Assembly (NCBI GenBank): GCA_036495095.1
Contig: DASXNK010000081.1
Span: 1 to 58,068 of the forward strand
DNA from: Candidatus Dormiibacterota bacterium
Lineage (GTDB): Bacteria > Chloroflexota > Dormibacteria > Aeolococcales > Aeolococcaceae
Length of the DNA: 58,068 bases
Direction of reading: 5' to 3'
Shown: piece by piece, positions 44,846 through 48,249 of the stretch
Numbering within the stretch: the stretch's first letter is position 1
How the letters are laid out: every line of letters begins with the position of its first letter
Position numbers and translations under genes: made by a program
The notes under the pieces: generated by a model
Told to the model about the DNA's origin: nothing
The model's database searches: none
Seen by the model: the letters and a program-made list of their open reading frames with translations, nothing else

Positions 44846-45481
44846 TCAGAGGAGGCCCTCGCGGTTGGCGAGCATCGCCGCCTCGACCCGGTTGCGGACC
44901 CCGAGCCTGCGGAAGATCTCCTGCACGTGCGTCTTCACGGTGTTCTCGCTGAGATGGAGGCGCGCGGCGATCTCTCCGTTCGAGAGGCCCTCGCTCATCA
45001 GCCGCAGGATGCGCATCTGCGGTTCGCTGAGCGCGGGGCGGGCCGTGGTCGCCGCCGCACCCCTGCCGCGGATCCGCTCGAGCATCGGACCGACCACCGT
45101 GGTCGCGATCACCGCCTCGCCGCGGTGGACGGCGCGGATGCTCCGGCTGAGGTCGAAGCGCTCGATATCCTTGACGATGTAGCCGCGGGCGCCGGCCCGG
45201 ATCGCCTCGACGACGAGGTCGTCGTCGGTGTAGACGGTGAGCATGATCGTCTTGACCTCGGGGTGCCTGCGGGTGAGGCGGCGGCACGCCTCGGCGCCAC
45301 CGATGCCGGGCAGGCGGACGTCGAGCAGGATGATGTCGGGTCGGGTGCGCTCCACGAGGTCGCCGAGGTCGTCCGCCGACCGGCTCTCGGCGACGATCTC
45401 GAAGTCGTCCTCCGCCTGGAGCATGGCGCGCAGACCCTCACGGACCATCTCGTGATCGTCGATGAGAGCGATGCGGATCAT
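44846..45481 (-). CDS. NarL/LuxR-family response regulator
   Basis: 211 residues. Receiver: LIDDHEMVREGLRAML with phospho-acceptor D54 in IILLDVRLPG and Lys in GYIVKDIERF. The C-terminal LuxR HTH reads LSEPQMRILRLMSEGLSNGE then IAARLHLSENTVKTHVQEIF and RRLGVRNRVEA. ATG 45481 overlaps the kinase stop (ATGA), so the pair is coupled. It probably activates genes in response to the GAF-linked signal of the kinase. Confidence 0.94.
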   Translation of the reverse strand: MIRIALIDDHEMVREGLRAMLQAEDDFEIVAESRSADDLGDLVERTRPDIILLDVRLPGIGGAEACRRLTRRHPEVKTIMLTVYTDDDLVVEAIRAGARGYIVKDIERFDLSRSIRAVHRGEAVIATTVVGPMLERIRGRGAAATTARPALSEPQMRILRLMSEGLSNGEIAARLHLSENTVKTHVQEIFRRLGVRNRVEAAMLANREGLL

Positions 45482-46737
45482 TCGCCCTCCGGCCGCAGGG
45501 GGACGTGCACCCTGATCAGAAACCCGCGCTCGTCGCCGTTGCGACAGGTGAAGGTCCCTCCGATCTCCTCGACGCGACGGCGCAGGTTGCGCAGGCCGTA
45601 GTGGAGATAGCTGTCACCGTAGCCCTCGAGGACCTCCTCCGATGCTCCCTCGCCGTCGTCCTGGATGGCGAGGTCGACATGGTCGTCGGCGTAGGTCAGG
45701 CTGACGTGCACCCGCTGGGCATGCGCGTGTTTGACCACGTTGGCCAGCGCCTCCCGAGCCACGGAGAGGAGGACGTCCTCCACCTCCTCGACGCCCGCCG
45801 CCGGCACCCCACTCACGCTGAGGTCCACGTCGAGCCCGTGCTCGCGCGCGGCGGCGCGGAGCATGGCTCCGATCGCTCCGTGGAGGTCGGTGTTCGGGCG
45901 CAGCTCGGAGAGCTGGAAGACGACCTGGCGGAGCTCCTCCGCGGTGGTCGTGATCTGGCGTTGCACCTCGCTGACGGTCTCGCGGACGGGAGGATCGAGA
46001 TCGTGCCCCAATAGTGCGTTCAGCTTCAGCCCGGTGCCGAACAGGCTCTGGCCGATGTGGTCGTGCAGGCCCGAGGCGATGCGTGCACGCTCGTGGGCGA
46101 GGAGGCGATCCTTCTCCAGCCCGTCGAGCCGCGCATGGAGCTGCTGCAGGCCGTCGATCATCTCGCGCTGACGCTCGTAAAGACGCGCGTTGTCGATGGC
46201 GACCGCCACCTGGTTGGCGAACGTCGACATCAGCTGCTCGTCCCCGGCGTGGTAGCCGCCCGGCTTGTTGGCGACACCGTTCATCCCGATGACCTCGGAC
46301 CCGACCCGGAGCGGCACGCCGAGGAACCGGCGCACCGGTGGATGTCCCCGAGGCTGCCCCACCCGGTGGGGATCCCGGGGCACGTCGTTGGAGACGACGG
46401 GGCGGTCCTCGAGGATGGCGGTGCTGAAGACGTTCGGGCGCAGCGGCATCGTCCGGAATCGGTCGAAGAACCCGGGGTCCGGCTCGAAGCCCCTGACCGC
46501 GACCATCTCGAGATGCTCGCGCCGGTGGTCCGCCAGGCCGATGAAGCCGAACTCGGACCCGGTCAGCGCCAGACAGTAACCGAGGACCCGGTCGTACACC
46601 GCGGGCAGCTCGTGCAGTGCCGCGATCTCGACCGAGATCCAGTACAGCGACTCGATCTGCTCGTGGTAGTCCTGGCTGCCCAGGTCGGTCAGGGTGGGCT
46701 CCTCTCCGGGTAGGCCGGCGGCGCGGTTCTCAGCCAT
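45478..46737 (-). CDS. GAF-domain sensor histidine kinase (NarL-system type)
   Basis: 419 residues, soluble. A GAF domain spans about residues 30-190 (GYCLALTGSEFGFIGLADHR, FLGVPLRVGSEVIGMNGVAN). A HisKA_3 dimerisation segment follows with His in ASGLHDHIGQSLFGTGLKL and a HATPase domain (VAREALANVVKHAHAQRV, DDGEGA, LHYGLRNLRRRVEEIGGTF). GAF suggests sensing of a small molecule or redox cofactor; no heme Cys/His motif is evident. ATG 46737 lies directly at the 3' end of a group II intron, so its leader is provided by the intron. Confidence 0.9.
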   Translation of the reverse strand: MAENRAAGLPGEEPTLTDLGSQDYHEQIESLYWISVEIAALHELPAVYDRVLGYCLALTGSEFGFIGLADHRREHLEMVAVRGFEPDPGFFDRFRTMPLRPNVFSTAILEDRPVVSNDVPRDPHRVGQPRGHPPVRRFLGVPLRVGSEVIGMNGVANKPGGYHAGDEQLMSTFANQVAVAIDNARLYERQREMIDGLQQLHARLDGLEKDRLLAHERARIASGLHDHIGQSLFGTGLKLNALLGHDLDPPVRETVSEVQRQITTTAEELRQVVFQLSELRPNTDLHGAIGAMLRAAAREHGLDVDLSVSGVPAAGVEEVEDVLLSVAREALANVVKHAHAQRVHVSLTYADDHVDLAIQDDGEGASEEVLEGYGDSYLHYGLRNLRRRVEEIGGTFTCRNGDERGFLIRVHVPLRPEGE

Positions 46738-46741
46738 GGTG

Positions 46742-47315
46742 CTGAGCCCGTCTCCGGCGGCCCCCCTCAGAACCGTGCGCGCGGTTTTCCCGCACACCGC
46801 TCCCCGGGCAGTCGAGTCCCGGCATTCCACCGCGCCACCGGCGTTGGCCGTGGATCCAAGCGGTGGCAGCGGGCATCGACGTGGTCCCGGAGGGGAGCGG
46901 GTGAGTGGCCCACGTGGACGTGGGCAAGCCCGCAGCCGTTCCCGTTGCGACCGCACACCCGGCTCGAGGCCCTTCGCTCCGGTGAGGTTGTGCTGTCCTC
47001 ACCATCATCACTACGGTAAGGCCTCTTCCGACTTCCGCTCGACTCTCCCTACCGGGCACCGTGGGCTGGCAACCCACGGCCTTCTGAGCCGGTGCCGAGA
47101 CGGATCTCTCCTGTTGCCGGTCAGGCCGTGCGCGCGTGCCACTCCCTGTACCCCGGAGGGACCCGGCAGACGTTTTGCTCCCTCCGATGAGGCTCTTGGC
47201 ACCCCGCTCAGCCGCCGGGTTCTCACCCGCCGACCGGGGCCTGCTACCGGGCGCTCCAGTACCTACCCGGGCGGGACTCACACCCGCTGGTCCGACCAAC
47301 CTACCAGAACGCAAC
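46742..47315 (-). mobile_element. Group II intron, bacterial class C-like, without ORF
   Basis: Minus-strand RNA of about 574 nt with group II hallmarks. Domain V at 46768-46802 reads GAGCGGTGTGCGGGAAAACC then GCGCGCACGGTTCTG, with the catalytic AGC and the class C closing GTTCTGAGGGGG. Domain I blocks GTGTGAGTCCCGCCCGG (47283-47267) and GGGTGAGAACCC (47228-47217) and the GAGCGGAAG segment near 47035 match the ribozyme parts of class C introns. No reverse transcriptase remains in domain IV. The 5' end near 47315 (GTTGCG) is estimated; the 3' end lies 0-10 bases from the kinase ATG. Confidence 0.78.
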
Positions 47316-47559
47316 ATCTCGACAGTCTATGTTGACACCCCGGCGTGATCCCAACCATCCCGCTCGGGTGAGCGCCCTCACCCTGTCAGGTGGTCCGAAG
47401 GGGTGAGCACGGTCCTGCCGAATGACCACGGCGATCTCACTCGCATTAGCGATGACACTGCAGTCGCGGACTGCGACAGTGGACCGGCGGAGAGCGACCC
47501 GGCAGGTCACGCGGGGGCGGCCCGGGTCGCCGGACAACGTGTGCACACCGGGACAGCGC

Positions 47560-48249
47560 ATGACCATCGAAGGAGAGTTGCAGGGGCTCCGGATCGGCGA
47601 GCCCGCCCTGGGGGACGAGGTCTGGGCCGAGTTGCTCGCCGGCGCCGGCGTCCGCCGGGTCCCGCCGCGGAGGCGTGTCCTCGCGCCCACGTCCCCGCCC
47701 TCCGTCGCCGTCGTCGTGCACGGCCTCGTCCGGGTCTTCATGTGGACCGCGCGCCGCACCCCCGTGACCATCGGCTACGCGAGGCACGGCCGGCTGGTCG
47801 GCCCCGGTGCGCTGCTCTCGAGCGGCAAGATCGCCGCCGAGGCCGTGGTCACGAGCACCGTCGCCCTGGTGCCCGCCGACCATCTCCGCGACACCCTGCT
47901 CCGGCGTCCGCAGGCGGCGTGGACGCTGGTGGAGTGGGCGCAGCGCTGGTATGCAGCCGCGCTGACCACCGCGATCGAGGGCATGTCCGCGCCGCTCAGC
48001 ATCCGCGTCGCCCGCCATCTCCTCGACATGTCGATGCTCACGCCCGGCGACGAAACCATCGCCCCGGTCACCCACCAGCACCTGGCCGACGCCGTCGGAA
48101 CAGCGCGCGAGGTCGTCACCCGGGCTCTCGGCGAGTTCCGCGAGCATGGACTGGTGATCACGCGACGGAGACACGTCGTCCTCCGCAATCCGCAGGGAAT
48201 GGCGCGTTTCGCGGCGGGACAGGACCCGCTGCTGCGGGACCCGGACTGA
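47560..48249 (+). CDS. Crp/Fnr-family transcriptional regulator
   Basis: 229 residues. An N-terminal cyclic-nucleotide-binding-like beta-roll (VRRVPPRRRVLAPTSPPSVA, VVVHGLVRVFMW, YARHGRLVGPGALLSSGK) is followed by a Crp-type HTH (THQHLADAVGTAREVVTRAL, GEFREHGLVITRR). Residues that bind cAMP are not clear, and no Fnr Cys cluster is present. ATG 47560 was chosen because it begins the conserved domain; longer frames to 47422 lack a ribosome site. Targets are unknown. It is divergent from the kinase/intron unit. Confidence 0.85.
   Translation: MTIEGELQGLRIGEPALGDEVWAELLAGAGVRRVPPRRRVLAPTSPPSVAVVVHGLVRVFMWTARRTPVTIGYARHGRLVGPGALLSSGKIAAEAVVTSTVALVPADHLRDTLLRRPQAAWTLVEWAQRWYAAALTTAIEGMSAPLSIRVARHLLDMSMLTPGDETIAPVTHQHLADAVGTAREVVTRALGEFREHGLVITRRRHVVLRNPQGMARFAAGQDPLLRDPD

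Follow-up and report, generated by a model that had tools for sequence, protein, structure and literature searches.

How is a sensor kinase made when a group II intron without a reverse transcriptase (RT) stands at the start of its gene? The window analysed here, a stretch of 58,068 nucleotides taken at its full length, carries such an arrangement on its minus strand. The common view is that group II introns avoid genes or need splicing inside them, and an initial annotation of the locus had proposed that splicing could control the two-component system. We find that the intron belongs to a family whose members lie directly behind start codons, and the reading that we favor as probable is that these introns home to leaderless start codons and leave the host gene expressible through splicing or through a translation relay, with the window copy now dependent on the relay.

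Identity and boundaries of the window intron

46705–47314 (−): group II intron without RT, 610 nt; from alignment to relatives of known ends
47168–47289 (−): 5′ part of domain I; RF02003 (group-II-D1D4-4), cmscan
46770–46802 (−): domain V, AGC and bulge kept, pair 5–29 now G-G; RF00029 match, fold and covariation
46708–46766 (−): domain VI helix with bulged branch-point A at 46711; fold and alignment

The sole curated-level match of the Rfam scan in the window was to RF02003 (group-II-D1D4-4) at 47289–47168(−), with 64.5 bits against a cut-off of 49 (E = 6.9e-12). RF00029 (Intron_gpII, domains V–VI) matched at 46804–46704(−) with 34.5 bits, below its curated cut-off of 40, and with an E-value of 6.5e-5 that comes from a small local search. 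Domains V and VI together (46802–46705) have a predicted folding energy of −58.2 kcal/mol (z = −3.9), and the domain V helix is paired in 94.9% of cells across 12 family members, with a covariation score above that of all 500 shuffles. The Rfam matches, the fold and the covariation of domain V establish that the group II intron is real. An RT-less intron at the kinase gene start on the minus strand, with a domain V and its AGC triad, is what the initial annotation had described, and both the covariance-model search that it suggested and the folding bear this out. The RT genes that it envisaged elsewhere in the genome did not appear: no RT was found inside the element or, by a PF00078 search, in the genome, which is 96.6% complete and holds one copy of the intron.

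The intron starts with TTGCG and ends with CTACCCGGA. In domain VI, GGGGGGCCG (from 46766) pairs with CGGCCU-A-CCC, closing at 46708, and the bulged A46711 is the seventh base from the intron 3′ end. With the helix closing at 46708 and homologous introns alignable up to 46709, the 3′ end of the intron is placed at about 46705; ATG 46737 consequently sits in the apical loop of domain VI, inside the intron. The same pairing and homologues rule out a 3′ end before this ATG; the boundary first given, 0–10 bases upstream of it, is about 33 nt too early. Nor does ATG 46737 begin the 3′ exon, as had been assumed; the 5′ exon is a second, upstream ATG at 47317–47315. A change of the first intron base from G to U was considered as proof that the copy is dead and was discarded: TTGCG begins the intron at 28 of 79 sites and, judged by that frequency, is a natural variant of the family 5′ end.

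Insertion sites of the intron family

47324–47329 (−): TAGACT, −10-like hexamer (TANNNT), 6 nt before the ATG; sequence, and 70 of 77 family sites
47315–47317 (−): ATG, proposed transcription start site, 3-nt 5′ exon, original kinase start and 3′ part of IBS1; family site position, empty sites in other genera, and EBS1 covariation in relatives

RT-less introns 72–75% identical to the window copy are present in three genomes of the same order, with several copies in one, and each lies directly 3′ of an RTG preceded by a TANNNT-like hexamer. Further RT-less lineages were not found in searches of Limnocylindria and Dormibacteria. When GTDB genomes were scanned with a pattern confined to intron-internal bases, 84 stretches of DNA were returned, mainly from Actinomycetota and Chloroflexota; many family copies stem from metagenome-assembled genomes and are cut off inside the intron by a contig edge. 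With the window site included and two weak hits set aside, 77 sites were readable. The triplet before the intron is ATG at 50 of them, GTG at 25, TTG at one and ATC at one, which places the intron directly after ATG or GTG at 75 of the 77. A TANNNT hexamer lies 5–8 nt upstream of the start codon at 70 sites, mostly at spacing 6 or 7; as background, 0.7% of all RTGs in the same loci have TANNNT at spacing 6–7. The window site reads TAGACT-GTCGAG-ATG|TTGCGTTCTG and follows the family rule, TANNNT-N5-8-RTG before KTGCGTYCTG. The two hits set aside (L163 at 6079 and L164 on the minus strand, from Rhodocyclaceae and Victivallales) follow long T-runs, and it is possible that they are a sister group with an older, terminator-type target rule. 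No terminator-like site was found in the window intron region.

TANNNT is the −10 motif in M. tuberculosis and is found at leaderless genes of mycobacteria (PMC3898074, PMC4633059), in which any mRNA starting with ATG or GTG is translated as leaderless (PMC4633059). The family sites resemble these mycobacterial genes in both the TANNNT −10 box and an RTG at the putative transcription start, and by this likeness TANNNT at 5–8 nt is the signature of a leaderless start codon. That the family targets leaderless start codons is well supported by the site counts, which also indicate that the start-codon position is a rule of insertion for the family and not a particularity of the window kinase. The open-licence PMC literature searched yielded no report of start-codon or leaderless targeting by group II introns, nor of introns at leaderless sites of the mycobacterial type. 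As each insertion would mark a leaderless gene, the family would map leaderless starts in uncultured bacteria.

Empty sites, junctions and exon recognition

Of 24 other Pseudonocardia read, 23 have an empty smpB start, TANNNT-N6-GTG|AAGGA. The filled site in Pseudonocardia OFTM178 has ..TAGGCTGGAGCGGTG|GTGCG on its 5′ side and ..CTACCAATG|AAGGAG on its 3′ side; these two halves come from separate contigs (L148 and L175) and are paired by their match to relatives. The FmdB-like gene of Nocardiopsis CNR-923 has a filled site with ATG inside a single contig, and 11 Nocardiopsis relatives have a single ATG and no intron in this gene. Both sets of empty sites demonstrate insertion directly after the start codon. 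The empty-site comparison that had been suggested at the outset thus succeeded for smpB and the FmdB-like gene but not at the kinase itself: the kinase gene of a same-genus relative (L003) appears to be leadered, not leaderless, so that an empty site of the window kinase is only presumed.

Introns of the RT-bearing clade carry their own start codon in their last bases, just before codon 2. It is ATG in 44 of 45 3′ junctions and GTG in the other. The junctions open onto rplY, smpB, rsmD, pdxS and an rmlA-like gene, among others, and joining the RTG to the 3′ exon gives LacI, epimerase-like, RplY, SmpB, RsmD and PdxS starts. A terminal ATG is missing from the nearest relatives of the window intron, which end in CTACCTCAC.

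In 19 of 20 aligned introns a domain I block, CAYN, is complementary to the exon bases at −4 to −1 (NRTG; z = 5.6 over shuffled partners), and the partners covary: GATG is matched by CATC or CATT, CGTG by CACG, and CATG by CATG. On the strength of this covariation the four-base pairing is EBS1–IBS1. If transcription starts at the R, three of the four IBS1 bases are in the RNA, and the fourth would be read in the DNA during homing. A reading in which the RTG belongs to the intron and insertion took place ahead of the start codon was rejected on the native GTG of the empty smpB sites, the intron-borne 3′ ATG and the EBS1 covariation.

Because EBS1–IBS1 comprises only four bases, NRTG sites are common, and the introns might have inserted at many of them with no targeting of promoters, surviving only at leaderless starts where the gene stays expressible; the relay set out below would explain why they are tolerated there. 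We consider this account rather unlikely. Almost no insertions are seen in other DNA, where they would be expected to be neutral, and 70 of the 77 sites carry TANNNT at the right spacing. Recent multi-copy sets, with nine near-identical 5′ ends in DBS2-4.bin103 and seven in Pseudonocardia OFTM178, have the same site pattern.

Decay of the window copy

47173–47174 (−): junction of a 114-nt domain I deletion removing EBS1; alignment with L068, L069, L071, L110 and L111

EBS1, complementary to the 5′ exon and present in 19 of 20 relatives, is absent from the window copy by deletion: its column falls within a 114-nt segment missing from domain I. The domain I blocks noted initially are therefore recognizable through RF02003 but incomplete. 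One of 13 domain V pairs is broken by the G-G mismatch, and the intron ends in CGGA, versus TCAC or AATG in relatives. With EBS1 and a domain V pair lost and no RT detected, the copy is probably splicing-dead. By its sequence it is a group II intron by descent and not a working intron, and most likely it is a dead element that neither splices nor moves.

The initial annotation had left two fates open, a maturase acting in trans or a dead intron, and it is the second that agrees with a genome in which PF00078 finds no RT. That the window intron is still spliced, alone or with a trans maturase, and that splicing controls the two-component system, we regard as very unlikely. Such splicing would create an ATG|GAGGAGCCC junction and an ATG-GAG-GAG kinase (MEEPTLTDLG), and several features agree with it: ATG would be joined to GAG in frame with the kinase, most of domains V and VI, with the branch A, is preserved and gives a good fold, and RTs are present in related genomes. 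Splicing as a regulator is nonetheless unlikely for this copy because the EBS1 part of domain I is deleted and domain V carries its mismatch, and the altered 3′ end and the absence of a detected RT from a nearly complete genome also speak against it.

The kinase locus

45478–46704 (−): 3′ exon, GAF-HisKA_3-HATPase sensor kinase from the inferred second codon (GAG GAG CCC ACC CTG); Pfam and L003 alignment
44846–45481 (−): LuxR-type response regulator (Response_reg + GerE); Pfam

The gene caller's kinase frame starts at ATG 46737, in domain VI. The conserved part of the kinase starts a few codons past the inferred 3′ splice site, and the alignment with the L003 kinase (70% identity) starts near that site. 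The LuxR-type regulator is likely the partner of the kinase. An SD-like stretch, GGAGAGGAG at 46707–46699, is followed by an in-frame CTG at 46692 (46707–46690 in all), in the position of the SD-like stretch and ATG of L003, and this CTG would be an alternative, weak start of the window kinase gene. A divergent Crp/Fnr-type regulator gene (47422–48249, plus strand) adjoins the kinase operon.

Reading frames through the introns

46730–47317 (−): reading frame of 195 codons that starts at the leaderless ATG, runs through the intron and ends with TGA at 46732–46730
46735–46737 (−): ATG in the domain VI apical loop, overlapping the leader stop (ATGGCTGA); fold and frame analysis

The frame that begins at the RTG is open from end to end in eight of nine RT-less copies, among them L068, L069, L071 (241 codons), L110 (265), L111 (262) and the window (195); L166, which keeps an RT remnant, has no single end-to-end open frame. 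All eight open frames stop in domain VI beside an in-frame restart codon for the host gene, and in the six RT-less copies measured the stop lies 13–28 nt from the 3′ splice site. In the window, ATG 46737 shares the kinase frame and precedes the 3′ splice site by 11 codons; the ATG..TGA arrangement in domain VI follows partly from the hairpin. Relative to its relatives the window copy has five indels, of 114, 33, 6, 3 and 6 nt, all multiples of three, and L110 and L111 differ by indels of 3, 3 and 3 and a −1/+1 pair. Substitutions are spread evenly over codon positions, so the frame is kept and the peptide is not. A conserved leader peptide was accordingly unsupported, and the 195-residue product had no Pfam or NCBIfam match.

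Two gutted relics, L122 (1460–1732) and L133 (4133–4366), from which EBS1 or most of domain V has gone, lie at NUDIX-like and CrgA-like genes. Their leaderless RTG, open leader (88 and 76 codons, respectively) and restart codon are still there. L111 (G399:C54) has lost many A residues relative to its sister L110, mostly to C; this loss alters the catalytic AGC of domain V, and the leader frame stays open.

Open frames could be a by-product of base composition, since a G+C content near 70% leaves fewer stops; insertion at leaderless starts would then be real, and the window gene would use ordinary initiation at a new site, either at CTG 46692 behind GGAGAGGAG or independently at ATG 46737. The SD-like stretch before a CTG at the L003 ATG position and the lack of a codon-position signal fit this explanation, which we nevertheless judge distinctly unlikely. 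Every indel of the window copy keeps the frame, the two other dead relics keep it as well, and the other two frames hold 6–10 stops in the window and Dormibacteria copies. In dinucleotide shuffles the frame was open in 0.2% of cases for L071, 1.1% for L110, 2.3% for the window and 6% for L111, figures that are not independent and hence were not multiplied. For the window frame P is about 0.02 when it is taken alone and 0.11–0.15 given its relatives; the case rests on the whole set.

Eight complete copies with an RT have a frame of 93–128 open codons starting at the host RTG. In seven it ends beside the ATG or GTG of the RT frame, as ATGGTGA or with TAA/TGA four bases before ATG; in L131 a second short frame leads to the RT start. 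Neighboring stops and starts in RT copies read ATGGTGA, TAACCATG and TGACTACCAATG. A conserved frame running from the RTG to the RT was discarded, since the first stop falls in two different frames around TATAAGCCGATGGTGA, and for RT copies only the closeness of stop and start is therefore claimed. The RT-frame stop is followed directly by ATG (TAACCATG) in seven of the eight; in L120 the RT is masked and interrupted. This ATG opens a frame of 32–33 codons through domains V and VI, closed by a TGA that lies six bases upstream of the terminal ATG or GTG, and the domain VI stretch measures 45 or 48 nt in 39 of 44 3′ junctions, preserving that frame.

From these sites and frames we infer a course in which transcription is leaderless, the RNA is either spliced or translated through the intron, and ribosomes restart. 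In the family, a TANNNT promoter and six or seven bases would precede an RTG that serves as transcription start site and start codon and makes up the entire transcribed 5′ exon; behind it would come the intron and then codon 2, with EBS1 (CAYN) pairing with NRTG. By one route, splicing would rejoin the RTG to codon 2. By the other, a ribosome on the unspliced RNA would start at the 5′ RTG, translate the intron and terminate beside a start codon near the intron 3′ end, in frame with codon 2. In RT copies the RT frame would start beside the first stop, and an ATG ahead of codon 2 would come from the last three intron bases; in copies lacking an RT, a single frame would span the whole ribozyme. 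For the window kinase this second route would apply: ribosomes would restart at ATG 46737, and the protein would begin with 11 intron-encoded residues (MAENRAAGLPG). Termination-reinitiation is the likely way in which this kinase is made, and the relay appears to let a host gene survive the loss of splicing. Translation of the ribozyme would hinder its folding, which would be odd if splicing matters.

More tentatively, although it is quite conceivable, the family may be a retroelement branch specialized on leaderless start codons, in which the RNP reads the open promoter complex (+1 to +3 in IBS1) and the chain of frames makes the RT and then returns ribosomes to the host gene. If so, splicing would be dispensable and insertion into essential genes tolerable. 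A family that sits behind housekeeping start codons (smpB, rsmD, rplY and others) and has three transcribed bases as its 5′ exon would widen the limits of exon recognition and reveal a target rule tied to the promoter. It would also be a natural setting in which to test ribosomes that translate a ribozyme, and dead copies, including that of the window, would show how a host keeps a gene running after the ribozyme decays.

Relation to known introns

In family member L186 the RT matches TIGR04416 (428 bits) and has RVT_1 and GIIM without HNH; together with the Rfam D1D4-4 match, these features identify the family as a set of group II introns. Among PDB structures this RT is closest to group IIC RTs. 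The initial assignment of the window copy, itself without an RT, to class C is plausible only through its relation to RT-bearing family members; its site is not of the terminator or attC type.

IIC introns insert after terminators or attC stems. The start-codon family resembles group IIC introns (GsI-IIC, the Eubacterium rectale intron) in an RT without HNH that is closest to IIC RTs in the PDB, its short EBS1–IBS1 and the reading of a structural or regulatory DNA context beside short base pairing; it differs in following a −10 box and start codon, not a terminator or attC stem, and is perhaps an offshoot of IIC using a different target. Ferat and colleagues reportedly described, in 2003, an Azotobacter groEL intron within the termination codon. 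That intron is likewise inserted exactly at a codon bounding the frame of an essential gene, but at a stop codon of one gene, whereas here start codons of dozens of genes in many lineages are occupied. In Thermosynechococcus elongatus, ORF-less introns are derived from RT introns (PMC2882425). The RT-less copies here similarly come from RT introns and would be mobilized by related RTs of the same genome; the T. elongatus introns differ in that host start codons are not their usual site and the remnant reading frame in them is disrupted, whereas here a frame stays open through the ribozyme.

Introns within introns were also observed in the family. In Gaiella sp. FR_16 (L191, 2327–5021, on a 3.3-Mb contig), a single insertion at a leaderless ATG contains two D1D4-4 matches 379 nt apart and is probably a pair of related introns, one nested in the other. 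A twintron in G046:C72 (L067, 3896–6608) has an RT-bearing intron between domains V and VI of an RT-less start-codon intron, and the inner intron is of another group II type (RF02001 and RF01998 matches).
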